This document shows positions 24,422-39,720 of a stretch of 64,000 nt of DNA, one piece after another (the first letter of the stretch is position 1; each line of letters opens with the position of its first letter). The notes below the pieces were generated by a model. The model was not told where the DNA came from and did no database searches. It saw only the letters and a list, made by a program, of their open reading frames with translations. A program made the position numbers and the translations under genes. The DNA is from Aurantiacibacter rhizosphaerae (GTDB lineage: Bacteria > Pseudomonadota > Alphaproteobacteria > Sphingomonadales > Sphingomonadaceae): the NCBI RefSeq assembly GCF_009807005.1, contig NZ_WUBR01000002.1, positions 434,001 through 498,000 of the forward strand. Direction: 5' to 3'.

Positions 24422-24498
24422 CGGGGAGTAGCTCAGCCTGGTAGAGCACTGTCTTCGGGAGGCAGGGGCCGGAGGTTCGAATCCTCTCTCCCCGACCA
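24422..24498 (+). tRNA. tRNA-Pro (anticodon CGG)
   Basis: A 77-base tRNA. Acceptor stem CGGGGAG/CTCCCCG, anticodon stem CTGTC/GGCAG with loop TTCGGGA giving CGG, T-loop GGTTCGAATCC, and encoded CCA at 24496-24498. It stands at the left edge of the accessory gene block, though no integrase or repeated tRNA 3' end was noticed. The 214 bases after it (24499-24712) show no gene I can support. Confidence 0.95.
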
Positions 24499-24712
24499 AC
24501 TTTCGTCGTTTCCGACAATAAGCCGCAGAATTCCGCCGTTTTCCTTCAACCGAGGAAATCGGTCTGGAGTCCTGCTCGCCGCTTTTGTCGCACGGCCCTT
24601 TCGCTTGTTAACAATCCGAGCGTAGTCCCGGCTGAGCGCGGCGCAGGCGGAGATGATGACTGCGCACCCTCCAAGTGTCTCGATTGCGTGCTGGAGTAGC
24701 CTAACCGTGCCC

Positions 24713-25525
24713 CTACCGCGGTGCGGACACCAGCAGCTCTGCCCGGCGGCTCTGCCAATCGTTCCGGCCAGTTGGTTCCGGCGCTTCGCTGAAAACCTCG
24801 AGGTGGATCGATCCTTCCGGTGCGCCCAGCCCTTCAAGGATGCCGACGATCTTCTCCCCTCTCTGACGGGCCATCTCTTCTCGCTCTACAAGAACTTCGC
24901 CGTTGTCGAGCAGGTTCGCGCCGCGAAACGCACGGACCGATATCTGCACGCCGGGCGTGGCTTCGGCCAGGCGGGCAAGTTCCAGCATGACCATGGCATC
25001 TGGGCCGGAAGCGCGATCTCGCTCGAAGGGGAAGTAGATGGTTTCCGTCTGTCCCAGCGCCACTTCCGGCACGGGCAACGCGCGCAATCGCATGATCTGA
25101 AGGGAGGTTGACGGATCGGCGAGGATCATTGCGCGCTGTTCCTCTGTGATGTCGGGCCGACGTCCAAGTTTCAGCGCGATAATTTCCGGTGTGGCAGGCG
25201 CGATCTCGTCACATTCGAGGGAGAGTTCGGGCAGGACCGAGGCGCGTCCCTCGATCTTCACCCCGCCGCATTCCTGCCCCTCATCGCTCACGTTGCCTTC
25301 CACCAACAGCTTGTGACCAAGCTGCGGCCGGCCCCAATCGGGAGGAATGGACACGCCGTACCGCTCACCATTGTGCCGCACGAAGAAGCAAACGTCGCTG
25401 CGCTCCCCGGTGTCCTGCGCCACGGGGCATGCGACAAAATTCAGATACTCCTGAGCCGAGGCCGGAACGGCGACCGTCATGGCGCATAAGGCGAGGATGG
25501 GAGCCAGTTTTCCGGGCATTCTCAT
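24713..25525 (-). CDS. Secreted protein with a C-terminal OmpA-like domain
   Basis: A 270-residue protein. A signal peptide covers about residues 1-25 (cleavage after ASA). The N-terminal half (~27-115) contains several cysteines (in VACPVA, SDVCFF, QECGGV, SLECDE) and is beta-rich. The C-terminal part (~165-270), starting TETIYFPFERDRA, has the OmpA/MotB-like peptidoglycan-binding pattern: an acidic middle, then REEMARQRGEKIVGILEGLG and the terminal SRRAELLV. Its ATG overlaps the stop of the di-haem cytochrome gene, so the two are coupled and probably act together in the periplasm. Function unknown. Confidence 0.7.
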   Translation of the reverse strand: MRMPGKLAPILALCAMTVAVPASAQEYLNFVACPVAQDTGERSDVCFFVRHNGERYGVSIPPDWGRPQLGHKLLVEGNVSDEGQECGGVKIEGRASVLPELSLECDEIAPATPEIIALKLGRRPDITEEQRAMILADPSTSLQIMRLRALPVPEVALGQTETIYFPFERDRASGPDAMVMLELARLAEATPGVQISVRAFRGANLLDNGEVLVEREEMARQRGEKIVGILEGLGAPEGSIHLEVFSEAPEPTGRNDWQSRRAELLVSAPR

Positions 25526-27066
25526 AGCACGCTCATGAAATTGATCAGATCCTGCTTTTCCTGATCGGTGTAGCGGATGTTGAAGCGGCGATCGTAGAAG
25601 TCCACCATCTCGCGCAATGTGTCGGCCTCTCCGCCCATGAAATAGGGTGCGCGGGCAGCAAGGCCACGCATCTGCTGAGTCATGCTGGCACCGATGTCGC
25701 TGCACCTGCCCGTCACCAGAGCGCGGCCCGGATCGTGGGTGTAGATAACTCTGCCGAGATAGGACTGCGGCACAGCATCATCGTGACAGGTCGCCTTGAA
25801 CAGCGGCAGGTCCTCGCGCCGGTTCCACGGCCAGTTGTTCAGCCCCAGGTCCATGAAGCCGGGTGCAAGGTCCATGCCCGCCAGAACGGTGTTGTGACAG
25901 CCCGATGCGCAGCTGCGCTTGAAGGGATTGCCCAGACCCTTGTCGTTATAAACGCCCACGTCCTGGATGAAGAAGCGCTTGTCGAAAAAGACATTCGCAC
26001 CGCGGGCGACGGATGCCTGGAATTCCTCCTGCGGGGTCAATTCCTCGCCTTCGCTGCGCTGGTTTAGCCACATGTTGAAGGTGCCAAACACCCGGTTGAC
26101 CGGATTGTTGCCAAGTTCGCCGGGAGGGCCATCGCGCATGGCTTCGGGGCCAAGGCCCGGCGGCGTGCCGAAACCGCCCAGTTCGCCTGCCTGGTTGCTG
26201 AAGCCTTGCGCGACGTAGATCGCGCGCTCGAACTCCTCGATCTGGCGAAGCTCTTCCTCGCTCAGCTTGGCAATCATTTCCAAGTGGGTGGAGCTTGCAT
26301 CGCCCGCCTGCCCGCGCAGGGTGGGCAGCCTGCCGTCCGACATCAGCTGCACGGATACGAACTCGCCGGTTTCCGGGTCGGTCGGCAGCAGGCTCTTGTC
26401 ATTGTACATGAAATATTCGTGCGGGGTCACGCCGTTGGGCAGCGTGAGCATGTACTTCATGTTCGCCACCGGGCGCGGCCTGCGAAAAACGGACACAGCG
26501 GGATCGTCGCTGAACATGCCCCATTCGGGATCGAGGTTGCAGCCCGTGGGATCGCTGACGACTTCCAGGTCAAATTCCGGTTCGATCACCGTGCCGTCTG
26601 CCGCGCGAGGAGGCCACGGGCGCGGAATGCGGAACAGGCCCTTCGTCAACAGCAGCGAATGGGATGCCTCCTCACCTTGCGGCAGGCTGGGGCAATTGGA
26701 ACCATCGACCGCCGCGAACAGCGGGTCTTTGCCACCCGTCGCATCCCACTGCGCCTGGATCGTCTTGGCCGAAAGGCTCATCGCGTCGGACGGCTGGTGG
26801 CAGGTGACGCAGGCGCGCCCGTTCTCGCCCAGTGGCTCGAAGAAGGGGTGGCCTGCCGTGTTGATGGACTCGCCCGTGTTGATGAGGCGAAGGCGGCCTT
26901 CCTCGTTGGGAAATTCCAGCGTTTCGCCGATCACGTGTTCTTCGCCCGGCCCCCACCACTGGCTTCGAGGCTCCTCGGCACCCTGGCTCATGGCGGCAAC
27001 GCCGAACGTCAGCGATGCGCCCACCAGCAGGGCGGCTGAGATACGGTTGAGAGAAAGCTGGGTCAT
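25522..27066 (-). CDS. Di-haem cytochrome c, cytochrome-c-peroxidase-like, with one CX3CH haem motif
   Basis: A 514-residue exported protein (signal peptide ~1-29). The first haem site is a normal CVTCH (C86-H90). The second is CASGCH (C386-H391), with three residues between the cysteines. The C-terminal stretch RGLAARAPYFMGGEADTLREMVDFYDRRF is typical of the MauG/CcpA di-haem peroxidase superfamily, although the size is larger than the usual 330-380 residues. It may be a peroxidase or an oxidase of an organic substrate. Its ATG overlaps the TAA of the amidohydrolase remnant (TAATG) and its stop overlaps the OmpA-like gene's start. It belongs to the hydrolase operon. Confidence 0.78.
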   Translation of the reverse strand: MTQLSLNRISAALLVGASLTFGVAAMSQGAEEPRSQWWGPGEEHVIGETLEFPNEEGRLRLINTGESINTAGHPFFEPLGENGRACVTCHQPSDAMSLSAKTIQAQWDATGGKDPLFAAVDGSNCPSLPQGEEASHSLLLTKGLFRIPRPWPPRAADGTVIEPEFDLEVVSDPTGCNLDPEWGMFSDDPAVSVFRRPRPVANMKYMLTLPNGVTPHEYFMYNDKSLLPTDPETGEFVSVQLMSDGRLPTLRGQAGDASSTHLEMIAKLSEEELRQIEEFERAIYVAQGFSNQAGELGGFGTPPGLGPEAMRDGPPGELGNNPVNRVFGTFNMWLNQRSEGEELTPQEEFQASVARGANVFFDKRFFIQDVGVYNDKGLGNPFKRSCASGCHNTVLAGMDLAPGFMDLGLNNWPWNRREDLPLFKATCHDDAVPQSYLGRVIYTHDPGRALVTGRCSDIGASMTQQMRGLAARAPYFMGGEADTLREMVDFYDRRFNIRYTDQEKQDLINFMSVL

Positions 27067-27254
27067 TACCTGTCTCCGCGCGTCGGTTGATGGCGGTAAA
27101 CTGTCCCGTCTTTCATCACGAACCGCACGTCTTTCACATTCGTTATGTCGTCAACAAGATTGCCGCCCACCGCCACGATGTCGGCAGCCACGTCCACCGC
27201 GATCGTACATCGCTTGCGCAAGGCCAGCCCGAGGGTCGTTGCGAAAACATTCAT
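27066..27254 (-). pseudogene. C-terminal remnant of an amidohydrolase
   Basis: A 62-codon frame. Beyond the first seven residues it reads LGLALRKRCTIAVDVAADIV and then AVGGN-LVDDI-VKDVRFVMKDGTVYR, the standard end of imidazolonepropionase-like amidohydrolases (LGL-x-GTIAxGxxADIVAVDGxPLxDI...VMKDGxVYR). All metal-binding parts, normally about 350 residues upstream, are absent. The ATG still overlaps the preceding hydrolase stop (ATGA) and the stop overlaps the cytochrome start. That suggests an internal in-frame deletion of a once complete operon gene. A short functional peptide is possible but less likely. Confidence 0.7.
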
Positions 27255-28177
27255 TCGGGCGCGCGGTCCAGCAACTCGCGTTCCTTCATCCATTCCAGCA
27301 AACGTCCGCCCCACAGATCCGGCGTCATGGTGAAGTTGGGAACGTCATAGACGTGCAGCTCCGCATGCTCGCGCTCCGCGATCCACATCTGGAACAGCGC
27401 GACGAGGCCGTCCGTCACCGGGCCGTGCCAGGCCTCCGTAATCAGGAACAGGGGCGGCGCGTCCTCGGGCACGGCGATATCCTGCAGGGCAGGACCGAAG
27501 TTCGAGATGATGAAATCGGGGGTCGCCCCCTCCTCGCCTGCCATCATGGTGCCGAAAGCAACGCCGCCACCTGCTGAAGTGCCGAACATGCCCACGCGGG
27601 CTGGATCGATGTTCCACTCTTCGGCGCGACTGCGCACGAGGCGGAGCGCGGCCTGTCCATCATTCACCGCCAGGCGCAGCACCTCGTTCATCGCCGGGTC
27701 GTCTGGCGACGGATTGGCATTGGCGTTGCGGATTTCCATTTTGGGAAATTCGGTTGGTCCCGATGCAGCCGGACGCGGTGCTGTCGCCTGAGCGATTTCT
27801 TCCGGCGTGCGCTGCAACGTGCGATATTCCAGCACGATCACGGCCACGCCCCTATCGTTCATCATCTTTGCTGTTTGCTGGATATACGCACCCATGCCCA
27901 GCACGCGAAGTCCGCCGCCCGGCAGCATGACGATGGCCGCGCCGTCTGCCTTGTCGGGCTCTGGCAGGAAGACCTGCAAGCGCGGTTCTGTGGTGTTGTA
28001 ACGCTCCTCTCCTCCATCGGCGGAGTGCACCACCAGCGGCTCCGACCAGTTCTGCGAACCAGGAGCAGGCCCATCATAGAGGTTCAGCATCTGCTGCTGC
28101 GCCGTGGCCGCGCAGGAGGGGAGAAAGGCGAGACAGGCCGCGCCAAGGGCAGTAAGTATGGTCTTGCGGCAAATCAC
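27251..28177 (-). CDS. Exported alpha/beta hydrolase (esterase), BD-FAE/xylan-esterase-like
   Basis: A 308-residue lipoprotein-like hydrolase using a GTG start at 28177, one base after the stop of the upstream gene, with AAAGGG 8-12 bases before it. An ATG at 28213 would add 12 residues but overlaps the previous gene. Lipobox FLPSC (Cys22), oxyanion loop MLPGGGL, nucleophile GTSAGGG (Ser201), and a C-terminal PNFTMTPDLWGG-like region are visible. It resembles esterases that remove acetyl or feruloyl groups from plant polymers. Part of the coupled operon with the next genes. Confidence 0.8.
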   Translation of the reverse strand: MICRKTILTALGAACLAFLPSCAATAQQQMLNLYDGPAPGSQNWSEPLVVHSADGGEERYNTTEPRLQVFLPEPDKADGAAIVMLPGGGLRVLGMGAYIQQTAKMMNDRGVAVIVLEYRTLQRTPEEIAQATAPRPAASGPTEFPKMEIRNANANPSPDDPAMNEVLRLAVNDGQAALRLVRSRAEEWNIDPARVGMFGTSAGGGVAFGTMMAGEEGATPDFIISNFGPALQDIAVPEDAPPLFLITEAWHGPVTDGLVALFQMWIAEREHAELHVYDVPNFTMTPDLWGGRLLEWMKERELLDRAPE

Positions 28178-28178
28178 C

Positions 28179-29156
28179 TCAGAAGCCCTTTGTTTCGTAA
28201 GTCCATTCCGCATTATCGCACAGGCCGCAGTTCTCGCCGATGAACCAGCGCGAAGCGGCCTCGTCCCCGCGCAGCTGCCACTCCAGCCATTGCACCGCTA
28301 CAGGAGCGACCGCGCCGCCATTCGGCTGCCGGAAGGTGCCGCCGTGGCCCACATCCAGATTGGCAACGGCCACCGGCACGTTATTGATGCGCTGAAAATC
28401 GTCCATGCCATTGGCGAAGGCGATGTCACTCTCGCCGCCTAGGATATAGAGAACCGGCTCATGAAAATTGCGCAGCTCCTCCTTCGCGACGGAGAAGCCG
28501 GTGATGGGATTGAAGGCGTCCGGGTCCAGCACGCCGCTGTTGTGAACGATGGCGGTGGCGATGCGCGGATCGGCGGCAAGCCTGATCGCCTGCAGGCCGC
28601 CACAGCTATGCCCGGCGACTGCGACCATCTCCGGATCGATCAGGCCGTGAAAAGGGCTCTCGGCACGGTCGTTCTCTGCCAGGATCCAGTCGAGCCCGGC
28701 AAGCAAATCTGCGGGCAGCGTCTGCACTGGCGGGAATGATCCATCGCTATGGGGTTCACGCGGCGGAGCGGTAAGCGCGCCCGGACCGCTATACGCCTTG
28801 CCCGGTGCAATCGCGATATAGCCGTGGGAGGCGATTTCCAGCAGGTGGAAACGGGCGGATGTGGCATCGGCGGAACAGCCGCCATTGCCCCACAATACTA
28901 CGCCAAGCTTACCATCGTCCACAGCGCCCAGGTCTTGCGGACGATAGACGATGTGATCGGGCAAGTCTGGCCGCACGTCGCGGATTGCGGGATATGGCCC
29001 GGTGCCCGGCATATCTGGCGCCGCGGCAAAGGCTGCATCGGATGCCGCGCGCGCTGCGGTTTCGTCAGAGTGCGTGACTGCCTCATCAACAGTTGCGCAG
29101 CCCGCCAGCACGACGGCAATGGCAAGAATGGCCGGGCGCGGTTGGGCAAATTTCAT
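28179..29156 (-). CDS. Exported alpha/beta hydrolase, paralogue A
   Basis: A 325-residue lipoprotein (lipobox LAGC, Cys20) with signal peptide and GGAGAG before the ATG. It has LPGTGPYPA, LWGNGGC (oxyanion), and nucleophile GHSCGG (Ser184), followed by NGMDDFQRI and a terminal IGENCGLC. The arrangement is that of small PETase/chlorophyllase-like periplasmic esterases. It shares many motifs with the hydrolase at 38593-39564, so the two are paralogues flanking the locus. It heads the coupled hydrolase-cytochrome operon and lies just past the TonB receptor terminator. Confidence 0.82.
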   Translation of the reverse strand: MKFAQPRPAILAIAVVLAGCATVDEAVTHSDETAARAASDAAFAAAPDMPGTGPYPAIRDVRPDLPDHIVYRPQDLGAVDDGKLGVVLWGNGGCSADATSARFHLLEIASHGYIAIAPGKAYSGPGALTAPPREPHSDGSFPPVQTLPADLLAGLDWILAENDRAESPFHGLIDPEMVAVAGHSCGGLQAIRLAADPRIATAIVHNSGVLDPDAFNPITGFSVAKEELRNFHEPVLYILGGESDIAFANGMDDFQRINNVPVAVANLDVGHGGTFRQPNGGAVAPVAVQWLEWQLRGDEAASRWFIGENCGLCDNAEWTYETKGF

Positions 29157-29179
29157 AATTCTCTCCGAACGTCTGATGG

Positions 29180-29213
29180 AAAAACGGCCGGCAAGCGTAA
29201 CGCTTGCCGGCCG
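29180..29213 (-). terminator. Intrinsic terminator of the TonB receptor gene
   Basis: CGGCCGGCAAGCG (29185-29197) and its exact complement (29201-29213) form a 13-base perfect stem with a 3-base loop. On the minus strand it is followed by TTTTT (29184-29180). It starts 7 bases after the receptor stop codon. It separates the receptor transcript from the hydrolase-cytochrome operon. Confidence 0.9.
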
Positions 29214-29219
29214 CCTTGC

Positions 29220-31829
29220 CTAGAAACCGGCGCGCAGGCCGATTGCGATAGTGCGACCTATCGGGCTGTGGGCATTGGGATCGAACGCCAGATTGCCGTT
29301 CTGCACATAAGGCGGATCATTGTCGAAAATGTCCTGCACATCCAGCGTGAAGGTGACGCTTTGCGTGAAGGCAACCGGCTGTTCCAGCGTGTAGCGCAGA
29401 GCGAGATCGAACTCGGTATGCGACGGCACATCCTGGATCGGCGTGACGGAATCATTGTCATAGCTGCCATAGTGATTGACGAACACGGTTCCTGACAGGC
29501 CGCCGACTTCCGCCCCGGCATAAGCGCGGGCGATGAAGGATGCCGGGTTGTTGATCGTATCCAGCACATCACGCAGCGGCGTGCCGGTGATGATCGAGCG
29601 ATCGAAGGACAGGATCTTGGTGGCATTCACGCCCACGCGCCATGAACCCCAATCGGCGAAGCTTTCGTAGCTGCCGATGAATTCAAGGCCGTCGGTCTTG
29701 TTCGCACCAAGGTTCACCTTGCGACCGTCGACAATCGCCTCGACATCGGCGGGGGATGCCGGCGGCGGGCTGAACAATCCGCCCGCGATGATGGCGTTCA
29801 CCAGATCGATGGGCGGATTGAAGGTGACAATCGGTGCAAGTTCCGGCTTCTGCAGCGCCAGCAGGTCATTACCCGGCGTGGCGATACGGTTGGTGTAGTC
29901 CACGTTATAATAGGTGACGGACAGGCTGAGGCCGTCAATCGCGTCTGGCTGCCAATCTGCACCCAGAGACCAGGTGGTGGCTTCTTCCGGCTGCAGATCA
30001 GGATTGCCGCCGCGAATAAACAGCACGTTGCGAAGGTTGTTGTTGCTGTCCACCAGCGGTCGATACTGGTTGAAGGGCAGGCCCGTGTCGGACAGCGTCG
30101 GCGCGCGGAAAGACGTGCCATAGCTGCCGCGCAGGGTCAGCGATTCCACCGGGCGGAAGGTGACGCCGAACTTCGGGTTCACCGTATCGCCCACGTCGTT
30201 GTAATCATCGTAGCGAACGGCTGCCGACAGGTTGAGTTCGGGGCCGTTGCCGCCGATGACGGGCACGAAGACTTCACCGAAGACAGAGTTGATCTTGCGA
30301 TCGAAATCGGTCTGGAAGGGCGCGAGATCCTTGAAGTTGATCTCCTGCCTTGCAGCACCCAGAGCCACGCGAACTTCGCCAGCCGGCATTTCAAACAGCG
30401 GGCCGTCGACCGAAGCGCCGTATTCATGAATGCCGTAATCGGTATCCACGCGGAAGGAGCCCACGAACGAGTTGATCGTATCGGGGTTGTTGTTGCCGGT
30501 GGAGCTGAAGGGATTGAAAGCGGTGGCAGGGTTCGGATCGGCCAGCGCGGCGGCCAGCACTCCGCCCAGCGGACCGGAGCCCAGGTTGCGCGTCAGCGAC
30601 CGTTCCTTGTCATGGCCATAGGCGTAAAACACATTGGCAGACCAGTCTGCGCCCAGCTGCGCGTTCAGGCCGCCCGTGATGTGATAGGCCTGCTGGGAAG
30701 ACGGGCTGCGCTCTGTGCCCAGTTCGTTGATGAACGAATATGCCACTGTCACGCGTTCACCCGGTGCGCCGGGATTTACGTAGAAGGGATTGGATGGCGG
30801 CACGTCGAACTGCGCGGCCAGTGCGGGGCCGGCCAGCACGCCGTCACGCTCTGCATAAAAGCCCTGCGCATAGAATTCGATGTTGGGCGTAATTTCCTGC
30901 TCGAAAGTTGCGGCAACGCTGTAGCGTTCCTGTTCCGGCAGGACGCCGGCACCCAGATAAGCGCTTTGCAGATTGCGCGTGCCAGCGGTAAAATCGCCGG
31001 GCGTCAGGTTCTCTCCATCGCCATCGGGGATGGCATAGCTGACACCGCCCACGGTGATATTGCCGGGCGCGGAGTTGGTGGAACGAAGGTCCGGCCCGCC
31101 GAAGGGGGTGAGATCGTCGGTGTAGAAATCGCGTTCCGACGCGAAAAGCGTGCCGCGCTTGTTGTATTCACCAGCCACCATGACAGATCCGGTAGCCCAG
31201 CTTTTGCCCAGGGCTAGACCAGCCTGATATTCCTCGAACCCGTCAGCAAACTTGACGCGGCCCATTGCTTCGGCACCGTCAAAATTCTTGCGCAGCAGGA
31301 TGTTCACCACACCGCCCACAGCGTCAGAACCGTAGATGCCGGAGCTGCCATCGGCCAGCACTTCGAGGCGCGCGATTGCCATCGTCGGGATGACAGAGGG
31401 ATCGAAGAACTGGCTCTGCGTGCCCGCAGCGGGCAGGCGGCGGCCGTCAAGCAGCGTCAGCGTGGATTCCGTGCCTAGGCCGCGCAGGTTGATGCCGGTG
31501 CCGAACGTGCGGTTGGCGTTCTGGTTGTTGGCGGAGGTGAACGATGCGTCAGTCGCGCCGAAGTTGAAGACCTGCGGCAGTTCTGAAAGCAGTTCGGTCG
31601 TGGTCGACGCGGAACTTGCCTCGATATCCTCGCGGCCAAGGCCGATCACCGGCGAACCAGTCGGCTCAATACCGCGAATGCGGCTGCCGGTCACGACGAT
31701 TGCGGGCACAACTTCTTCCTCGATCCCGGCACCGGCATCCTGCGCCAGCGCTGCACCGGGAAGGCACAGGGCAATCAGGGAGCCACTGCCAAGCAGGGCC
31801 GCGAAGTTCGAATTCAGGGACTTTCTCAT
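29220..31829 (-). CDS. TonB-dependent outer-membrane receptor
   Basis: An 869-residue protein. Signal peptide about residues 1-30 (cleavage after ALA), then the TonB-box/plug region with VPAIVVTGSRIRG and the plug domain (~45-170: LLSELPQVFNFG, INLRGLGTESTLTLLDGRRL, GSSGIYGSDAVGGVVNILLRKNF). The rest is beta-barrel ending GRTIAIGLRAGF with terminal Phe. The form is typical of sphingomonad receptors for organic ligands rather than siderophores. The ATG at 31827-31829 has GAGAGAGGA upstream. It lies 111 bases after quiC and is probably expressed with the phenolic/shikimate genes. Ligand unknown. Confidence 0.92.
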   Translation of the reverse strand: MRKSLNSNFAALLGSGSLIALCLPGAALAQDAGAGIEEEVVPAIVVTGSRIRGIEPTGSPVIGLGREDIEASSASTTTELLSELPQVFNFGATDASFTSANNQNANRTFGTGINLRGLGTESTLTLLDGRRLPAAGTQSQFFDPSVIPTMAIARLEVLADGSSGIYGSDAVGGVVNILLRKNFDGAEAMGRVKFADGFEEYQAGLALGKSWATGSVMVAGEYNKRGTLFASERDFYTDDLTPFGGPDLRSTNSAPGNITVGGVSYAIPDGDGENLTPGDFTAGTRNLQSAYLGAGVLPEQERYSVAATFEQEITPNIEFYAQGFYAERDGVLAGPALAAQFDVPPSNPFYVNPGAPGERVTVAYSFINELGTERSPSSQQAYHITGGLNAQLGADWSANVFYAYGHDKERSLTRNLGSGPLGGVLAAALADPNPATAFNPFSSTGNNNPDTINSFVGSFRVDTDYGIHEYGASVDGPLFEMPAGEVRVALGAARQEINFKDLAPFQTDFDRKINSVFGEVFVPVIGGNGPELNLSAAVRYDDYNDVGDTVNPKFGVTFRPVESLTLRGSYGTSFRAPTLSDTGLPFNQYRPLVDSNNNLRNVLFIRGGNPDLQPEEATTWSLGADWQPDAIDGLSLSVTYYNVDYTNRIATPGNDLLALQKPELAPIVTFNPPIDLVNAIIAGGLFSPPPASPADVEAIVDGRKVNLGANKTDGLEFIGSYESFADWGSWRVGVNATKILSFDRSIITGTPLRDVLDTINNPASFIARAYAGAEVGGLSGTVFVNHYGSYDNDSVTPIQDVPSHTEFDLALRYTLEQPVAFTQSVTFTLDVQDIFDNDPPYVQNGNLAFDPNAHSPIGRTIAIGLRAGF

Positions 31830-31940
31830 GGTAATCCTCTCTCTTGCGTCCGGCATTTCGCCGGTTGGCTTTCTGGCATTATCAACTGGGTTAAAATCGG
31901 TGTAGGCTTTGGGTGGGTTGGGTTCTTTGCAGGCCATGGT

Positions 31941-33803
31941 TCACATCCATTCCGGCTCTCTGTGGCTGGCTTGCGCGCTCAGGCGGATGGCGGCGTTTGC
32001 CGCGCCGAAGGCATCGTAATCGCGGCGTTGCACCACTTCGAAGAACACCCGCTTGGCAACCGCGCGGCTGTAGAACTGGAAATATTCGCCCTGCTCGTCG
32101 CGGTCGTAGAGGATGTTGCCTGCGCGCAGCCGTTCGAGCAGTTTAGGCTCCAGCCCGAAGCGCGCTTCGATATCGTCGTAGTAGTTCGGGCCGATCTCGA
32201 GCAGCGGCAGACCGGCTTCGGTCGCAGATTGTGCCGCCTTGAAGATGTCGTCGGTCGCCAGCGCAATGTGCTGCACGCCAGCGCCGAAGTAGTTGCGGAT
32301 GAAGCGCGAGCTCAGCGACTGATGGGCCAGCGATCCGTTGAGGGTAAAGCGCACGCTGCGATCGGCGTTCTGCACGGCCTGGCTGTAGATCAGGCCCATC
32401 GGATCGGCGATTTCCAGTTGCGCCGTCGTATCCATATCGAACAGCGAGTGGTAGAACAGCAGCCAGCTGAGGAATTCGCCCTGCTGCATGGTTTGGGCCA
32501 CGTGGTCGATCCGGGTCAGAAGCGGAGCGGTGCCTTCTTCCTCTTGCTGGTGCGGAAATTCCTCCGCCCACATCGCTTCGCTTTTCGCCGCGTCGACAAG
32601 GTAGAGAACGCTGCCGCCCATGCCGCGAACACCGGCGATATCCCATTCGTCGGGGGCCACGGCCTGCTCGAACCGCTGGATGCCCAGCGCCTTCGCGCGT
32701 TCCATGGCTGCATCTGGGTCGGTTACGCCAAGGCCGATGGCACAAACGGAGCCGCCGTGAACCACCTCATGGCTGTGCGCATGGCCGTCGGGCTCAGAAT
32801 TGATGACGAAGTTGATCTCGCCCTGCTTCCACCGGGTCACATCCTTGCTGCGATGCTTTGCGACGGGCGTGAAGCCGAGCGCGCGGAAATATTGCGCGAA
32901 TTCTTCCGCCTCTTCGTCGCTGGCGGCAAATTCGATGAACTCAGTGCTGGTCGCGGCTACGCGGTCGGGCAGCACCGGTTGGCGACCGGAAACACGCACC
33001 GCCTCGTCCTCCAGAAAGCGAAGGGAGCGATGGCCGTCTACCGCCAGCTGGCTGGCGGCGCCTGCACGGAACTGATCATTGAAAATCTCCAGACTGAACC
33101 ACCCGTCGTAACCTGTGCGCTGAATGGCGGCGACATATTCGGCCACGGGCCAGTCGCCCTGCCCCGGCAGTACGCGGAAATGGCGGCTCCAGCTGAGGGC
33201 GTCCATGGAGAGGCGCGGCGCATCGGCGAGCTGCACGAAAAACAGCTTGTCACTGCGAATATCGCCGATGCTGCTGCTGGGAATGTCGCGCGCCAGCGAG
33301 TGGAAGGAATCCAGCACCAGCCCGACAGAAGGATGATCCACGTCGCGGACCAGCGACCACGCATCGCGATGATCGTTGACGTGCCGACCCCACGCCAGCG
33401 CCTCGTACCCGATGCGCTTGCCATGCCGCGCCGCCAGTTCGCCCAATTCACCCAGGTCATCCAGCATGCGCTGGCGGTCCGGCAGGGCGGCGGGAGAGCA
33501 GTTGGAGCACAGGAGCACTAGATCGGTGCCGAGCGCGTCCATGATTTCGAACTTGCGCTCCATGCGTGCAAAGGCTGCGCTGCGCTGAGGCTCGGGCATG
33601 CCTTCAAGATCGCGGAACGGCTGGAACATGGTGCATTCCAGGCCCAGGTCGCGCATCATCTGCGCAATCGCCTTGGCATCCTGCGGCGCGCCGATCAGGT
33701 CGTTCTCGAAAATCTCGACTCCGCCAAAACCGGCGTTCGCTGCAGATTGCAGCTTGTCGGCCAGCGGGCCGCTGAGGCAGACGGAGGCGATGGACGTCTT
33801 CAT
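31941..33803 (-). CDS. quiC: Two-domain 3-dehydroshikimate dehydratase (QuiC type)
   Basis: A 620-residue fusion. The N-terminal sugar-phosphate-isomerase-like TIM barrel (~1-275) carries the metal set E134, D165, Q191, E239 plus H168 (LDSFH), as in bacterial 3-dehydroshikimate dehydratases. The C-terminal half (~285-610) is a vicinal-oxygen-chelate/HPPD-like domain with RIDHVAQTM, GVQHIALAT and FFEVVQRRDYDAFG. It converts 3-dehydroshikimate to protocatechuate. The same architecture is known in Pseudomonas putida QuiC1. The start overlaps the shikimate dehydrogenase stop (ATGA). The role of the HPPD-like half is less clear in general. Confidence 0.9.
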   Translation of the reverse strand: MKTSIASVCLSGPLADKLQSAANAGFGGVEIFENDLIGAPQDAKAIAQMMRDLGLECTMFQPFRDLEGMPEPQRSAAFARMERKFEIMDALGTDLVLLCSNCSPAALPDRQRMLDDLGELGELAARHGKRIGYEALAWGRHVNDHRDAWSLVRDVDHPSVGLVLDSFHSLARDIPSSSIGDIRSDKLFFVQLADAPRLSMDALSWSRHFRVLPGQGDWPVAEYVAAIQRTGYDGWFSLEIFNDQFRAGAASQLAVDGHRSLRFLEDEAVRVSGRQPVLPDRVAATSTEFIEFAASDEEAEEFAQYFRALGFTPVAKHRSKDVTRWKQGEINFVINSEPDGHAHSHEVVHGGSVCAIGLGVTDPDAAMERAKALGIQRFEQAVAPDEWDIAGVRGMGGSVLYLVDAAKSEAMWAEEFPHQQEEEGTAPLLTRIDHVAQTMQQGEFLSWLLFYHSLFDMDTTAQLEIADPMGLIYSQAVQNADRSVRFTLNGSLAHQSLSSRFIRNYFGAGVQHIALATDDIFKAAQSATEAGLPLLEIGPNYYDDIEARFGLEPKLLERLRAGNILYDRDEQGEYFQFYSRAVAKRVFFEVVQRRDYDAFGAANAAIRLSAQASHREPEWM

Positions 33804-34666
33804 GCCGCGCTCCGCTGCTGGCCAGTCAGCGCGGCCAGCATACGGTCGCGATCGGGCTCTACCCCGGTAAACTGACGGAACGCTTCTGCCGCCTGGCCAA
33901 CCACCATCGGCGCGCCATCGGCAGTGGCCATGCCGCGTTGCCGTGCAGCCTTCAGCAATTCGGTTTCACGGGGAAAATAGATCACGTCCGCCAGCCATTG
34001 GTCTTCGTCAAGCAGAGCAGGGTCAAACGGCATTCCGGGATGCTGAGCCATACCCACCGGTGTGGACTGCACCACGCCGCACGCACCATCAATCGCACCT
34101 GCGGCAGATGCACAGGCGATGATCGTGGCTTCCGGGAAGGCCGAGCGAAGGCGCTGTTCAAGCGCCTCGATCCGCGTGGCGGAAGCATCGTGAATGCGCA
34201 GTTCGCGCGTGCCCGAAGCGAGCAGCGCAAACGCTGTAGCCGAGCCTGCTCCACCGGAGCCGATCTGCGCAACGATATCGCGCGGCTCATCCGGCAAGGC
34301 CACGTCGAGCATGAACTGGAAGCCGATCCAGTCCGTATTGCTGCCGATCATGCGCCCGTCACGGAAGGTTACGGTGTTGACCGCGCCGAGCGAGGCAGCG
34401 GTGGGATCAATGTCGTCAAGCAGGGGTATGACGGCCTGCTTGAAGGGATGGGTGATATTGACCCCGCTGAAACCGCCATCCAGCAGTTGGTTCAGCTTGC
34501 CGGACAGGGCATCGTCAGCCAGCCCCAGCAGATCGAAATCGAACAGCTGGTAGGTAAGCGCAAGGTCAAGGCAGGCAGCTTCGGTCTCGTGAATTGCCGG
34601 GGAGGAGGATGCAGCGATCCCTCGGCCCAAAAGCCCTACCTTCAGCGGAGAATTAGTGCCCGTCAT
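33800..34666 (-). CDS. Shikimate dehydrogenase-like protein (shikimate/quinate family)
   Basis: A 288-residue protein. The N-terminal GLLGRGIAASSSPAIHE resembles catabolic shikimate/quinate dehydrogenases, NITHPFK carries catalytic Lys76, and NTDWIGF carries Asp112. The nucleotide loop is QIGSGGAGSA and STPVGMAQHPGMP follows. It probably oxidises shikimate (or quinate) to the 3-dehydro form in the cytoplasm. Being fused by ATGA overlaps to the MFS transporter upstream and QuiC downstream, it is better explained as catabolic than as the biosynthetic AroE. Cofactor preference (NAD or NADP) is not read with certainty. Confidence 0.85.
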   Translation of the reverse strand: MTGTNSPLKVGLLGRGIAASSSPAIHETEAACLDLALTYQLFDFDLLGLADDALSGKLNQLLDGGFSGVNITHPFKQAVIPLLDDIDPTAASLGAVNTVTFRDGRMIGSNTDWIGFQFMLDVALPDEPRDIVAQIGSGGAGSATAFALLASGTRELRIHDASATRIEALEQRLRSAFPEATIIACASAAGAIDGACGVVQSTPVGMAQHPGMPFDPALLDEDQWLADVIYFPRETELLKAARQRGMATADGAPMVVGQAAEAFRQFTGVEPDRDRMLAALTGQQRSAA

Positions 34667-35973
34667 GCTCGCCGCTCCGGAACGGCGACAAGCAGCACCA
34701 GCAGGCCGGCAAGGACGGCGGGCACGGCATAAATGGCAAAGATCGTTCCAACCGGAAGATCGGCACCGACGAGATAGCCACCAACCAGCGGCCCCAGTAC
34801 CGCCCCGATGCGGCCCACGCCCATCGACCAGCCGATGCCGGTGCTGCGGATATCGGTGGGATAGAACCGCGCGGAAAGCGCCCAGAAGCCATTGAAGCCG
34901 CCCTGCACACTCACACCAACGAACATTGCCGAAAGCAGCGTCAGCGCCAGTGGCATCGATACATTGCCAAAGATCAGCATGGCCACGGCAGAGGCGAAGA
35001 AGAACAGCGATATCACACGCGGCAGCGCGAACCGCACAGCTAACCAGCCCATCGCGCTTGTGCCGAGAAAGGCACCAAGGTTATAGGTCGCCCCGGCGTA
35101 GATCGCCTGATCAACCGGCAAACCAGCGCGGGTGGTGAGTTCAGGGATCCAGTTAATCACGAAATAGAGGACGAAATATCCCAGCGCCACGGCGAGCCAA
35201 AGGATGATGCCGGACCGCATCCGGCCATCGTCAAACAGGCGCAGCAAGCCGATCTTGTTCGCAGTGTCTGGCTTCGGCGGCAGCGCGTCAAGCGGCTCAT
35301 GCCCCAGTCGCGCACCAAGCTTGTTAGCGCGTTCCAGCGCATTCTTCGGCTGGCGACGCAGCAGGAAATCGAGCGATTCCGGCATGACGATCAGTGCGAT
35401 GACCAGCAGGCCGAGGCTGAGGAGCCCGATCATCAGCAGGACCATGCGCCAGCCATATTCGGGCAGCAGCGCCACTGTGAGAAACGCGGTGATGATAGAC
35501 CCGAAGGGCCAGCCCGCCTGGACGAAGCCGACAGCAAAGTCGCGATAGCGGGCGGGCGCGAATTCAGATGCCATGGCCGTCATCGTGACGCCGATCGTTC
35601 CAACACCAAGGCCAATCACGAAGCGAGCGAGCACCATCGCCTGAACCGAGTGCACTTGCGATGAAATCACCATCGCCACGGCGACGACGGCCAGCGCACA
35701 AATGATGAGCGGGCGGCGACCGAAACGGTCTGCCAGCGGCGCGATGAGCAGACAGCCACCGGCCATGCCGGCAAGACTGGCGCTGAAGATGATGCCGAGA
35801 TCTGCGGGCGCGATCGACCATTCATCGGACAGCACCGGCGCCACGAAGGACATCACCAGAAGGTCTGCACCGTCAAGCATGTTGAGCAGGAAGCACAGGC
35901 CCACAGCAATAATCTGCACCGGCTTCCACTCGGTAGAATCGGCAGTTTCAGGGATGGCAGCGGCCGCGTTCAT
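34663..35973 (-). CDS. MFS transporter, aromatic acid:H+ symporter (AAHS) type
   Basis: A 436-residue, 12-helix protein. NMLDGADLLVMSFVAPVLS in helix 1 fits the DG-x-D motif of AAHS transporters such as PcaK, and ADRFGRRPLI is the MFS loop 2-3 motif. C-terminal RSTGIGWSMGVGRIGAVLGP is typical of the family. Likely substrate is shikimate, quinate or a hydroxybenzoate, inferred from the next two genes. The ATG at 35971-35973 is preferred over the TTG one codon upstream. It is divergent from the TetR gene and overlaps the dehydrogenase by 4 bases. Confidence 0.88.
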   Translation of the reverse strand: MNAAAAIPETADSTEWKPVQIIAVGLCFLLNMLDGADLLVMSFVAPVLSDEWSIAPADLGIIFSASLAGMAGGCLLIAPLADRFGRRPLIICALAVVAVAMVISSQVHSVQAMVLARFVIGLGVGTIGVTMTAMASEFAPARYRDFAVGFVQAGWPFGSIITAFLTVALLPEYGWRMVLLMIGLLSLGLLVIALIVMPESLDFLLRRQPKNALERANKLGARLGHEPLDALPPKPDTANKIGLLRLFDDGRMRSGIILWLAVALGYFVLYFVINWIPELTTRAGLPVDQAIYAGATYNLGAFLGTSAMGWLAVRFALPRVISLFFFASAVAMLIFGNVSMPLALTLLSAMFVGVSVQGGFNGFWALSARFYPTDIRSTGIGWSMGVGRIGAVLGPLVGGYLVGADLPVGTIFAIYAVPAVLAGLLVLLVAVPERRA

Positions 35974-36073
35974 CAAACGACTCGCGCCGCGCTGTTGGTG
36001 CTGATTGCAATCATGACGTCCTCTCGCTTCGCCCCCGTTATCCGGGAAGGTCGAATGGAGCGCATCTAAACAT

Positions 36074-36088
36074 ACCGTCCGGTACGGT
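36074..36088. promoter_or_regulatory. Candidate TetR operator, inverted repeat ACCGT-N5-ACGGT
   Basis: ACCGT (36074-36078) and ACGGT (36084-36088) form perfect arms around CCGGT in the divergent MFS/TetR region (35974-36185). Its place and symmetry suit a TetR-family dimer. Binding is not shown. Confidence 0.45.
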
Positions 36089-36096
36089 CAACAACA

Positions 36097-36116
36097 AACA
36101 TACAGGTTGGAATGTT
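36097..36116. promoter_or_regulatory. Second inverted repeat AACAT-N10-ATGTT in the divergent region
   Basis: Five-base perfect arms with 10-base spacing lie 8 bases after the first candidate operator and about 70 bases before the TetR start. It could be a second site or part of the same regulator's contact region. Confidence 0.3.
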
Positions 36117-36185
36117 ATTGCATCAGGCCATTGCCCTTGGCTATGACACGCCGCAAGAACATATAAGACGAGAGAGTGGAGAGTT

Positions 36186-36824
36186 TTGGCAGAGGCAGCG
36201 GTCAAGGAGCGGCGCAAGCGGAACGCATCGGCAACACGTGCCGAACTTGTGGCCGTGGCGACCGAAGAGTTTGCCGAAAAAGGGTTGGCAGGCGCAAGGG
36301 TAGAGGAAATCGCTTCGCGCACTGCCACCAGCAAGCACATGATCTACTACCATTTCGGCAGCAAGGACGGGCTGTATCGCGCCGTGCTGGAACAGGCCTA
36401 TGACGAATTTCGGATCGCCGAAGGATCGCTCGATTACGACGATCTGCCGGCGCTCGATGCGCTAACCGCGCTTGTCGGTGCGACGTTCGACGTGCACGCC
36501 CGGCGTCCGCAGATTGTTCGCATCATCATGGCCGAGAACATAAATTGCGGCGAGCAGATCCATTCGATCGACAGCTTTCAGCAGCGTGAGCTGGCGCTGG
36601 ATACCATGCGCCGAATTCTGGATCGCGGCGCGGCGGACGGCACCTTGCGAAGCGGGCTGGACCCCTTGCAGGTGCACCTTACCGTCAGCGCGCTCTGCTT
36701 CCACTACATCGCCAATGTCCACACCTTCGGCCACGTATTCGAAATCGATGCCCACTCCTCCACCGAGATGGAAACCCGCCGTGAGGAGATCATCGCAACC
36801 ATAGTCAATCGCTGTGCGAAGTGA
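36186..36824 (+). CDS. TetR-family transcriptional regulator
   Basis: A 212-residue protein with a TTG start preceded by GGAGAG. The N-terminal helix-turn-helix is clear: TRAELVAVATEEFAEKG, then VEEIASRTATSKHMIYYHFGSKDGLYRAV. The C-terminal ligand/dimer domain spans ~80-210. The divergent position next to the transporter-dehydrogenase-dehydratase set, with inverted repeats between, suggests it represses that operon and possibly its own, with a pathway compound as inducer. The tannase gene follows 16 bases after the stop, so regulator and esterase may be co-transcribed. Confidence 0.9.
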   Translation: MAEAAVKERRKRNASATRAELVAVATEEFAEKGLAGARVEEIASRTATSKHMIYYHFGSKDGLYRAVLEQAYDEFRIAEGSLDYDDLPALDALTALVGATFDVHARRPQIVRIIMAENINCGEQIHSIDSFQQRELALDTMRRILDRGAADGTLRSGLDPLQVHLTVSALCFHYIANVHTFGHVFEIDAHSSTEMETRREEIIATIVNRCAK

Positions 36825-36840
36825 CGGGAAAGGAATGAAA

Positions 36841-38571
36841 ATGATTAACAGCAAAGCCGTTGCACCCATGTGCCTGGCGGCCCTACTCGCGTCATGCACC
36901 GGCATGGGTTCGACACCGCCTGCCAGCGCCGGTGCAGACGCGACCGCATTTTCCGACAGGTGCGCCGCACTGGGCGCACAGCTGATGTCGCAGGCGCCGG
37001 TGCGCGATCTCGTTATCCAGACCAGTGCGTGGCAAGAGAACCTGGTCCTCGAAGGCGAAGGCTCCGATGTGCAGGCCCCGCTGCCCGCACATTGCCTTGT
37101 CGAGGGTTACTATGGCGAGCACGAGGGCCAAATCGGCGGATCATACCGTACAGCTTTCCGCATGCGCTTGCCGCTGGACTGGAACGGGCGCTTCCTGTTC
37201 GAAGGCGGCGGCGGTTCCAACGGCGTGATCCGCGAAGCGACCGGCATAAACGGCCCCGGAAACACCACGGCGCTGGATCGCGGCTATGCAGTGATCGCGC
37301 AGGACAGCGGACACGACAATGATCGCAACAATGTGCCCAGCCACGGCGGAGTGATGGCATTCGGCCACGATCCGCAGGCCCGCGCAGACTATGGCCATTC
37401 CAGCCTGAAACCGACTTACGATCTTGGCCAGCACATCGTCTCCACGCTTTATGGCCGCGACAGCGAAACCAATCTTTTCTGGGGCTGCTCCAAGGGCGGG
37501 CAAGAGGGGATGGCCTTCGCGCAGCGCTATCCCGATGCCTTTGACGGGATCGTGGCCGTGGCCCCCGGCATGGCGCTGCCCCGCGCCGCGGTGGCACAGG
37601 CATGGGACACGCAGGCACTGGCGGGCGTCCTTACCGCGCGCGGCGAGAAGCCTTCGGTCGAGGGCCTGCGCACGCTGTTCTCCGATCAGCAATTCGCGCT
37701 GGTGAGCGATGCCACACTGGAAGCCTGCGACGCCATCGACGGCGCGCAGGACGGCATCGTCGCGGCAATCGGGCAATGCACCACCGCTCGCGTGGAGCCG
37801 GAACTTCGTGCGCGCCAATGCACCGCGCAAGGGGCAAGCGATTGCCTTGAGAGCGCGCAGGTGGATGCAATCCTGAAAATCATGGACGGCCCGCGCGATG
37901 CAGATGGCAAAGCGCTTTACTCCGACTGGGCCTGGGACGGGGGTGTTGGCGCAACGGGCTGGCAGGTCTGGAAGACTGGCCTGGTAAACGGTCCGCCGTC
38001 GCTGAACGTCGTATTGGGCGGCAATGCGCTGGCTTCCGCCTTTACCACTCCGCCCACGCCAATCGCGCCCGATCCGGAGCAATTGCTCGCCTGGCAGCTG
38101 GCGTTCGATTTCGATAAGGATGCTCCGGCCATCTATGCGGTGCAAGCTCCGTACAAAACCAGCGCCTGGCAGGATGTCGGCATGCGCTCCACCGACCTAT
38201 CCGCCTTTCGCGCGAATGGCGGAAAGCTGATTGTGCCCCACGGCAGCAGCGATCCCGTCTTCTCGGTCCTCGATACGATCAACTGGTGGAACGAGGTCAA
38301 TACCAAGACCGGCGGAGACGCAGCCAGCTTCGCAAGGGTGTTCCCGGTTCCCGGCATGAACCACTGCCGCGGCGGACCATCGACCGACCAGTTCGATTCC
38401 CTGTCTGCGCTGGAAAGCTGGGTCATCGACGGGAAAGCGCCAACCTCCATTTCTGCGACTGCTAGCGACGAAACGCCATGGCCGGGTCGCGAAATGCCGC
38501 TTTGCCCATACCCGCAAATCCCGCTGGCAAACGGTGCGGACGGCTATCGCTGCGCTCGGCCCCAGATCTGA
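36841..38571 (+). CDS. Tannase/feruloyl-esterase family protein
   Basis: A 576-residue exported protein with a lipobox (LLASC, Cys19). The catalytic set reads Ser217 in WGCSKGGQEG, Asp471 in HGSSDPVF, and His508 in GMNHCRGG. Cys216 and Cys509 flank Ser and His, the CS-D-HC disulfide pattern established for tannases and FaeB-type esterases. It hydrolyses phenolic esters such as gallates, ferulates or chlorogenate outside the cytoplasm. The ATG at 36841 has AAAGGA at the better distance; the ATG at 36835 is an alternative. The next hydrolase gene begins 21 bases after its stop. Confidence 0.88.
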   Translation: MINSKAVAPMCLAALLASCTGMGSTPPASAGADATAFSDRCAALGAQLMSQAPVRDLVIQTSAWQENLVLEGEGSDVQAPLPAHCLVEGYYGEHEGQIGGSYRTAFRMRLPLDWNGRFLFEGGGGSNGVIREATGINGPGNTTALDRGYAVIAQDSGHDNDRNNVPSHGGVMAFGHDPQARADYGHSSLKPTYDLGQHIVSTLYGRDSETNLFWGCSKGGQEGMAFAQRYPDAFDGIVAVAPGMALPRAAVAQAWDTQALAGVLTARGEKPSVEGLRTLFSDQQFALVSDATLEACDAIDGAQDGIVAAIGQCTTARVEPELRARQCTAQGASDCLESAQVDAILKIMDGPRDADGKALYSDWAWDGGVGATGWQVWKTGLVNGPPSLNVVLGGNALASAFTTPPTPIAPDPEQLLAWQLAFDFDKDAPAIYAVQAPYKTSAWQDVGMRSTDLSAFRANGGKLIVPHGSSDPVFSVLDTINWWNEVNTKTGGDAASFARVFPVPGMNHCRGGPSTDQFDSLSALESWVIDGKAPTSISATASDETPWPGREMPLCPYPQIPLANGADGYRCARPQI

Positions 38572-38592
38572 CAATTGAACGGAGTTTCTACC

Positions 38593-39564
38593 ATGCGGGC
38601 AATTTTCATCGCGGCAACATGCCTGGCGTTGTGTTCAGGCCATGCTGCCTCTGCGCAGCAGGAAATCACCATACAGGAGGCGCGCACCATTGCCTCTGAA
38701 GCGCGCGATGCCGCGACGGCAATGATACCGGACCTGCCCGGAACAGGCCCCTACCCCGCCACCTATGAAATCCTCCCCGATTTCCCGGATCACGTTATCT
38801 TCCGGCCAGCTGATATGGATGGCCTTGGCGACGAGAAGCTGCCGCTCATCGTCTGGGGGAATGGCGGTTGCCAGGACGATGTAGGCAAGTATCGCCTGGC
38901 GTTGCTGGAAGTAGCTTCACACGGCTATGTCATCGTCGCGCCCGGCGGGATTTACTCCGGGCCACGGGCCGATATTTCGAACCGGCGCACGCAAGAGGAA
39001 GATGGGGTCGCTCCCGGAAAAACCAGTGCAAGCCAAATTGCTGAAGGTATCGACTGGGGCATTGCCGCCTCGCGCGATGAAGGCAGCGCCTATTTCAACC
39101 GGCTGGATACAGACGCGATCGGGGTTTCGGGGCGCAGTTGCGGCGGCGGCCAGGCGATCAGGGTGGCGGCAGACCCTCGCGTCAAGGCAGCCGTGTTCCA
39201 CAACACCGGCATCATCATCGAAGGCGAGTTCGTGATCGACGGAAAGGTGATGCAGAAGTCCGAACTGGACGCACTGCACACGCCGGTGCTGTACATCATG
39301 GGCGGCCCCTCCGACGTTGCCTATCCCAACGGCACGGACGATTTCTATCGCATCGATCACGTTCCCGTGATGCTTGTCGACGTGGATACCGGCCACCTGG
39401 GCACTTACCGAGATCTGTTCGGCGGTCGTAACACCCAGATGGAGCTTGATTGGCTCGACTGGCAGTTGAAGGGCGATCAGACAGCCGCCAGAACCTTCGT
39501 CGGTCCGGCATGCCGGCTCTGCCTGCAACCGGATTTGCGCGTGATGAAGAAGGGTATCGACTAA
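38593..39564 (+). CDS. Exported alpha/beta hydrolase, paralogue B
   Basis: A 323-residue secreted protein (signal peptide ~1-21, cleavage after ASA) with GGAG 8-12 bases before the ATG. It has LPGTGPYPATY, VWGNGGC, nucleophile GRSCGG (Ser182), NGTDDFYRI and GPACRLC near the end, closely paralleling the hydrolase at 28179-29156. It is not a lipoprotein, unlike its paralogue. It follows the tannase gene and is the last gene of the accessory block before purF. Likely an esterase in the periplasm; substrate unknown. Confidence 0.82.
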   Translation: MRAIFIAATCLALCSGHAASAQQEITIQEARTIASEARDAATAMIPDLPGTGPYPATYEILPDFPDHVIFRPADMDGLGDEKLPLIVWGNGGCQDDVGKYRLALLEVASHGYVIVAPGGIYSGPRADISNRRTQEEDGVAPGKTSASQIAEGIDWGIAASRDEGSAYFNRLDTDAIGVSGRSCGGGQAIRVAADPRVKAAVFHNTGIIIEGEFVIDGKVMQKSELDALHTPVLYIMGGPSDVAYPNGTDDFYRIDHVPVMLVDVDTGHLGTYRDLFGGRNTQMELDWLDWQLKGDQTAARTFVGPACRLCLQPDLRVMKKGID

Positions 39565-39720
39565 GGCTTGCTGCATCTCAGGTTGCGGAGTGGTGTGCCG
39601 TCCGATAGCCAAGGCTTTGCATAATTCGATCGTCGCAATTGGCCAAAACCGTGCCGCGCCCCTTGTAATCGATCTGCAACATCGCCATTGGGTCTGCGCT
39701 GCTGTTACAAACGGAAATCG

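Follow-up and report, generated by a model that had tools for sequence, protein, structure and literature searches.

A rare inserted gene cassette of Aurantiacibacter rhizosphaerae with a predicted role in the catabolism of phenolic esters of shikimate

In Acinetobacter baylyi ADP1, clustered catabolic genes (pca-qui and hca) direct the products of phenolic esters such as chlorogenate, as well as quinate, to protocatechuate by way of the dehydratase QuiC (PMC4213383), and in Corynebacterium glutamicum a two-domain 3-dehydroshikimate dehydratase (DSD), QsuB, is encoded in the quinate/shikimate operon qsuABCD (PMC7442255). A precedent for the import of a lignin-derived aromatic compound by a TonB receptor of a sphingomonad is DdvT of Sphingobium SYK-6 (PMC6874591). 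Here, we describe a locus of Aurantiacibacter rhizosphaerae in which genes of these kinds are combined with exported hydrolases and with a gene pair encoding a di-haem protein and an OmpA-like protein. The locus lies at positions 24713-39564 of the window, that is, the 64,000-nucleotide stretch analyzed (C2:434001-498000) in a 3.42-Mb genome. The cassette is real, rare and inserted; its enzyme families are known, the combination is rare, and it is conserved in a second genus.

The sequence itself shows which genes are present, how the operons are laid out, which catalytic residues are encoded, where the segment is inserted and that metabolic sinks exist; the substrate, the direction of metabolism, the regulation and the role of the di-haem pair are inferred. 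On balance, the locus is probably an island gained by horizontal transfer and controlled by TetR that serves the catabolism of shikimate's phenolic esters and possibly also of those of quinate. The TonB receptor would carry the ester across the outer membrane, and the tannase-family enzyme, with the hydrolases hydA, hydB and hydC, would cleave it there or in the periplasm. The freed acid would be imported by the AAHS-type aromatic acid/H+ symporter, shikimate would be oxidized to 3-dehydroshikimate by an NAD-type shikimate dehydrogenase (SDH), and QuiC would convert the latter to protocatechuate, to be passed to the chromosomal ligAB cluster. The freed hydroxycinnamate or gallate would go to the chromosomal p-hydroxycinnamoyl-CoA hydratase/lyase (HCHL) cluster or to the gallate dioxygenase, and the di-haem/OmpA pair would provide an additional extracytoplasmic redox step.

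Layout and predicted chemistry of the locus

Eleven closely packed genes are arranged divergently: tetR-tannase-hydC runs along the plus strand, and AAHS-SDH-QuiC-TonB receptor-hydB-hydA-dihaem-OmpA-like along the minus strand. All eight genes of the latter unit are co-directional, with a 3-bp gap between QuiC and the TonB receptor gene, and open reading frames (ORFs) overlap by 4 bp at AAHS/SDH, SDH/QuiC and dihaem/OmpA, by 11 bp at tetR/tannase and by 35 bp at hydB/hydA. All the genes named in the earlier note, which had been written from the sequence alone, were found at the coordinates it gave, and the packing, overlaps and divergent TetR gene that it reported were borne out.

QuiC (31941-33803, minus strand) is a two-domain 3-dehydroshikimate dehydratase in which an AP_endonuc_2 half (144.9 bits) is joined to a 4-hydroxyphenylpyruvate dioxygenase (HPPD)-type half; this C-terminal HPPD-like domain scores above the cut-off of PF14696 (116 bits) and below that of TIGR01263 (230.7 bits, cut-off 277). 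E134, D165, H168, Q191 and E239 are kept at the expected positions of the N-terminal TIM barrel and are conserved in 16/16 aligned QuiC proteins (the window's and 15 others, with the incomplete proteins of L032 and L035 left out). These are the five compared of the ten active-site residues listed for QuiC1/QsuB, which include Glu134, Asp165, His168, Gln191 and Glu239 (PMC7442255). The SDH (33800-34666, minus strand) exceeds the cut-off of NF009201 (340.3 bits, cut-off 235), and its best match in the PDB is the quinate/shikimate dehydrogenase 3jyo (218.6 bits). Its catalytic Lys and Asp are kept (NITHPFKQ, NTDWIG), and an Asp stands at the end of beta-2 (LRIHDAS), as in 3jyo, where the genome's own AroE reads SGRDPEK; the same Asp is present in 12/12 locus-type SDHs. 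We take an Asp that replaces the Arg motif after beta-2 to signify a preference for NAD rather than NADP, and by these residues the enzyme is of the NAD type, in agreement with the catabolic type assigned to it earlier. As a separate observation, the QuiC of L026 (G199) has a Tyr in place of one aligned His of the HPPD-like half, a residue that is presumably an iron ligand.

The extracytoplasmic part of the predicted pathway comprises a TonB-dependent outer-membrane receptor (29220-31937, minus strand; PF00593, 120.7 bits) and four hydrolases. The tannase/feruloyl-esterase family hydrolase (36814-38571, plus strand; PF07519, 332.7 bits; LASC lipobox-like motif, by eye) has the CS-D-HC pattern that the earlier note had recognized, confirmed as GCSKGG, GSSDP and NHC in an alignment to MHETase. 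The other three are exported alpha/beta hydrolases: hydA (27251-28213, minus strand) is of the BD-FAE/Abhydrolase_3 type, whereas hydB (28179-29156, minus strand; LAGC lipobox-like motif, by eye) and hydC (38575-39564, plus strand) are paralogues with 44% identity whose PETase-type matches are weak. These esterase families are broad; phenolic esters are the presumed substrate.

Given that the tannase aligns best in the PDB with MHETase entries (384 bits) and hydC with poly(ethylene terephthalate)-type hydrolases and a lipase (53-54 bits), the locus might be imagined to serve the use of aromatic polyesters or plasticizers, with PETase-like hydB and hydC and an MHETase-like tannase. This is very improbable: in the alignment, R411, F415 and S416 of MHETase, its substrate residues, with Arg411 binding the carboxylate, are replaced in the tannase by V, G and N, respectively, which weakens the MHETase/PETase reading, and such a function would leave SDH and QuiC without a role.

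The earlier note had remarked that ring-cleavage genes are missing from the window, and indeed no LigB or intradiol family match lies inside it; there are five such matches elsewhere in the genome, the LigB family being represented at four sites and the intradiol family at a single one. One LigB belongs to a protocatechuate 4,5-cleavage cluster that also encodes LigA (208.5 bits, cut-off 108.6) and, above their cut-offs, LigK and 4-oxalomesaconate tautomerase; a second LigB scores as a gallate dioxygenase (657.6 bits, cut-off 412); and the intradiol match is most like catechol 1,2-dioxygenase, albeit below the cut-off of that model. An HCHL (412.3 bits, cut-off 276) adjoins an ADP-forming acyl-CoA-ligase-like gene, a LigB and an aldehyde dehydrogenase gene. 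Judging from these predicted enzymes, the genome encodes ways to complete the breakdown of protocatechuate, gallate and hydroxycinnamates. In two loci of relatives, L024 and L031, genes grouping with the lig genes of the window's genome (LigA in both, LigB in L024) lie within ~10 kb of QuiC, an arrangement that links dehydroshikimate dehydration with 4,5-cleavage.

Protocatechuate could in principle be made for iron capture, QuiC diverting biosynthetic dehydroshikimate to a catechol whose iron complex is taken up by the TonB receptor encoded in the same operon; a DSD makes the catechol of petrobactin (PMC7442255). We give this explanation little credence, as an NAD-type SDH, an AAHS importer and four ester hydrolases suit breakdown, no siderophore-synthetase-type gene is found among the 11 annotated genes, and the genome contains the ligAB sink.

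The earlier note left open whether the alicyclic acid is quinate or shikimate. Import of an ester, its cleavage and the conversion of the acid to protocatechuate receive contextual support from the QuiC/SDH chemistry, the import-plus-hydrolysis layout and the sinks, whereas quinate came out as less likely than shikimate. The genome has two SDH genes and a single AroQ, which is unlinked to the locus, and no Type I 3-dehydroquinate dehydratase was detected in it at E<=0.001. No enzyme of the genome exceeds the cut-off of TIGR03074 for pyrroloquinoline quinone (PQQ) dehydrogenases (best score 409.1 vs 832.65), and a PQQ-dependent (QuiA-type) quinate route is thus unsupported in this genome; Croceicoccus (G119) has two TIGR03074 enzymes above the cut-off. 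PQQ dehydrogenases of other types are present, and a distant quinate enzyme may be among them. A variant of our reading, in which quinate or chlorogenate esters are the substrate, the SDH also oxidizes quinate and the housekeeping AroQ supplies dehydroshikimate, is possible but doubtful. The SDH's closest solved relative is a quinate/shikimate dehydrogenase, and both an AroQ and PQQ dehydrogenases of other types are available in the genome; however, AroQ is encoded in 6/16 of the relatives' QuiC loci and not in this one, and no TIGR03074 enzyme passes the cut-off. Because of these last points and the lack of linkage of the sole AroQ, shikimate esters fit better than quinate esters: shikimate appears to be the better-supported alicyclic substrate, and quinate would qualify on condition that the SDH takes it as a substrate and AroQ contributes.

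The TetR-family regulator (TetR_C_29; 36186-36824, plus strand; PF17938, 109.3 bits) is separated from the AAHS gene by a divergent promoter region that includes a conserved 55-bp block (36067-36121; 46/55 positions identical with Croceicoccus). Within this block are two imperfect inverted repeats, which are candidate TetR operators; no operator common to all QuiC loci was found by eye in 13 upstream regions. The stop codon of a short ORF (35973-36014, minus strand; MIAISTNSAARVV) overlaps the second (ATG) start of the AAHS gene, possibly representing a leader peptide or translational coupling. Croceicoccus seems, by eye, to have a similar start to this ORF.

Insertion site and distribution of the cassette

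The locus is an accessory segment inserted, as judged from genome comparison, between tRNA-Pro(cgg) (24422-24498, plus strand), which marks its left edge, and purF (39688-41196), just ahead of which homology with locus-free relatives resumes (39659-39690). Across 13 other genomes of the same genus, the tRNA-Pro-to-purF segment is variable. The two genes are ~0.15-0.5 kb apart, the site being nearly empty, in G459, G014 and G494; ~6-11 kb of other DNA occupies the site in G103, G285 and G486; no complete tRNA-Pro is found within ~14-16 kb upstream of purF in G561, G213, G251 and G502; and the stretches from G508, G545 and G165 are too short to judge. On the left, homology ends at the tRNA 3' end in comparisons with G459, G014, G494 and G103, and 6 or 43 bp past it with G285 and G486; at the right edge it picks up again near 39659. 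The 25-nt tRNA end occurs just once in the window with <=3 mismatches allowed, the two locus edges have no word of >=9 bases in common and the annotated genes between them include no integrase, so that site-specific integration, and with it the mode of arrival, is suggested only by the end points of homology. The base composition of the locus is unremarkable, carrying no sign of foreign origin.

The contents of the site differ among relatives. By eye, and from N-termini, G285 has a TonB-receptor-like gene and a pilus-assembly-like set at the place that corresponds to 24499-39659, and G486 has asparagine-synthase-like and PqqD-like genes (by eye), perhaps of a lasso-peptide cluster. In G251, a 35-nt, 97% match to the tRNA-Pro 3' end and the 15 bp beyond it (L124:13612-13646) lies ~2.4 kb before purF in a stretch with no whole tRNA and resembles the remnant of an attachment site.

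The accessory status proposed in the earlier note is supported by this variable site and by the rarity of QuiC, which was detected in 18/298 genomes of the family, including the genome analyzed here, and in 0/6 same-genus genomes of that sample. Among 17 other QuiC surroundings that were fetched (two of them of 5.5 and 9.2 kb), the gene set is present in one, that of G119, which is Croceicoccus sediminis S2-4-2, the locus of G119 and that of the named strain being 100% identical over 14.2 kb. Here, ten orthologues with 75-89% protein identity follow the same order and orientation, and the place of hydC is taken by a member of the hydB/hydC family (45% identity to hydC, 52% to hydB). Ten ordered orthologues and a family member in hydC's place in another genus put the locus beyond chance, and conservation of the neighborhood beyond this strain, on which the earlier note had made its proposal depend, is thereby established.

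Of the 16 QuiC loci L019-L034, 13 include an esterase of a type that was searched for, 12 each a TonB receptor, an SDH and a TetR, 15 a major facilitator superfamily (MFS) transporter, 6 an AroQ and 3 a PQQ enzyme, compared with one esterase, one TonB receptor and none of the other five in 16 control stretches (17-20 kb), a contrast that is flattered because some of the references came from QuiC loci and 11/16 controls are the purF site. The controls include ring-cleavage stretches of the genome itself (L075, L076), the sole control esterase (BD-FAE type, 34%) being in L076, and exclude L126, L129 and L130 as too short. For the QuiC count, L035 (a 5.5-kb contig) was dropped and L032 is of 9.2 kb; the loci are ~20 kb, or less at contig ends, near which absences mean little, and their genes come from a codon-usage caller that overlooked hydB and OmpA in some loci.

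Several findings weigh against an island for phenolic esters of shikimate. QuiC scores 637.9 bits against the NF042435 equivalog, below its cut-off of 1200, and is therefore named by its residues and architecture and not as a member of that equivalog. The transporter (34663-35976, minus strand) matches TIGR00895, its best NCBIfam model, over the full length but with 331.7 bits, below the cut-off of 418.55; by sequence it is AAHS-type and not a certified AAHS member. The sinks are non-specific, with LigB-family genes in 6/6 and an HCHL above the cut-off in 5/6 genomes tested, locus-free ones included. Relatives of the tannase were found in 15/397 genomes (E<=1e-90), the present one included, and of the 13 that remain when those of the window and of Croceicoccus are set aside (46-61% identity), 11 directly adjoin a TonB receptor, 7 have a LacI gene and 7 a BD-FAE gene nearby, and none is near QuiC; because the tannase/TonB pair is common without QuiC, the tannase alone is no pointer to shikimate. 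Finally, the set TonB-hydB-hydA-dihaem-OmpA is found at another place in G459 (L080) with 80-91% identity; the other six genes are missing there, and what look by eye like a tyrosine-recombinase gene and the 3' fragment of a tRNA lie close by. The set also occurs in Aurantiacibacter sp. 219JJ12-13 (L132) with 77-91% identity and no QuiC in the fetched 21.5 kb.

The L132 and G459 modules lie in different genomic places with no flanking DNA in common, and the presence of the five genes without QuiC at two other places makes the cassette composite. Hence, of the claim that the genes form one system, the conservation of the set in Croceicoccus stands, but the set joins two separable modules; the earlier reading holds in its outline, but it left too much room for quinate and overlooked the composite nature of the cassette. 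The locus might then simply bring together two unrelated pathways, namely an operon from shikimate to protocatechuate and an extracytoplasmic TonB-hydB-hydA-dihaem-OmpA module for some other ester or polymer, which would explain why the module has no high-identity QuiC, SDH or AAHS-type neighbors in those two places. We consider this unlikely in view of the eight genes on one strand, the 3-bp gap between QuiC and the TonB receptor gene, the identical arrangement in Croceicoccus and an independent neighborhood of QuiC, hydB and dihaem in two Novosphingobium. In the latter (strains SG707 and SG751A), QuiC (69%) is accompanied by a carboxylesterase, a TonB receptor of another type, a di-haem gene and a relative of hydB (54-55%). 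Should the island for phenolic esters of shikimate prove real, sphingomonads would treat phenolic esters of alicyclic acids through receptor-plus-hydrolase islands, as other bacteria treat polysaccharides, and such islands would come and go at tRNA-linked sites.

The di-haem/OmpA-like gene pair

The exported di-haem c protein (25522-27066, minus strand) has two haem motifs, CVTCH and CASGCH, but not the standard membership of the cytochrome c peroxidase (CCP)/MauG family, as the second site is CX3CH and the match to PF03150 (23.5 bits) is below the cut-off of 25.6. A profile of 55 of the proteins found (alignment A2) retrieves 3o5c, a cytochrome c551 peroxidase (E 3.9e-5), and 6e1c, a 'di-heme enzyme' (E 6.9e-5), and sequence profiles place the kinship to di-haem peroxidases mainly in the C-terminal part; the protein thus appears to be only distant kin of the bacterial CCP/MauG family. 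Among its named relatives are the proteins of Aurantiacibacter sp. 219JJ12-13, with 91% identity, and of Croceicoccus sediminis, with 83%.

The adjoining gene (24713-25525, minus strand, taken in preference to the overlong ORF 24713-25705) encodes a divergent, exported OmpA-like protein with no Pfam match even at E<=5; PF00691 is matched by 12/41 members of its family (E<=0.01). The best 80 of 98 confirmed candidates gave 79 named di-haem loci with 84 di-haem ORFs, fragments included, and an OmpA-family ORF, detected with a profile built from neighbors of di-haem genes, lies directly downstream of 78 of these 84, ending 0.4-1.3 kb further on the same strand. Of the other six, three are near a contig edge and three, one of them a fragment, have no OmpA-family gene. 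In an uncultured Erythrobacter (L167), three di-haem genes occur in one 21-kb stretch.

The CX3CH motif is present in 11/55 aligned proteins (the window's and those of ten of the 11 named CX3CH loci), all on one side of a branch with 100/100 support in a tree for which the motif column was kept in the alignment. Apart from the window, the CX3CH loci are L132-L139, L201, L202 and L208; they belong to Alpha- and Gammaproteobacteria, among them Parahaliea, Alteromonas, a Caulobacter metagenome-assembled genome and Novosphingobium rosa, and 11/11 have the OmpA-family gene. In plain, cluster-based counts that rest on codon-usage gene calls, HCHL-type genes are found at 3/11 CX3CH loci vs 3/68 other di-haem loci, aldehyde dehydrogenase genes at 5/11 vs 9/68 and AAHS genes at 6/11 vs 4/68; the HCHL of L135, the only one compared with the family model, reached 465.1 bits (cut-off 276).

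A phenolic context for the di-haem/OmpA pair is therefore plausible. We tentatively propose, as a possibility that we regard as short of probable, that it is an undescribed extracytoplasmic redox pair acting on phenolic substrates at the outer membrane, with the second haem bound by CX3CH in one clade, and that it would here oxidize or protect the phenolic moiety before import. The pair is the part of the locus most worth pursuing: an unnamed gene pair of Pseudomonadota, Bacteroidota and Acidobacteriota has been brought to light that recurs next to aromatic catabolic genes.

Comparison with described systems

No description of the gene set was found in the open-licence literature of PubMed Central, as represented by titles and the starts of abstracts. 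Within the family, the other QuiC loci (L020-L034) resemble the locus in combining QuiC and, mostly, SDH with a related TetR, an MFS transporter, a TonB receptor and esterases; they differ in that their esterases are BD-FAE or carboxylesterase types, their TonB receptor resembles the present one only to ~24-32%, and a tannase or di-haem gene is present in 0/15.

To our knowledge, qsuABCD includes neither esterases nor an outer-membrane receptor, and we know of no link between DdvT and QuiC or a tannase. The structure 3jyo is that of QsuD of C. glutamicum, and the chlorogenate esterase gene of ADP1 is hcaG. The substrate of DdvT is a biphenyl compound, unlike the esters proposed here.

ADP1 uses the periplasmic enzymes QuiA and QuiB, whereas the locus described here encodes an NAD-type SDH and contains no AroQ or PQQ gene. 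In further contrast to ADP1, it comprises a TonB receptor, tannase-family and PETase-like hydrolases, a TetR regulator and the di-haem/OmpA pair, and its predicted sink is 4,5-cleavage.

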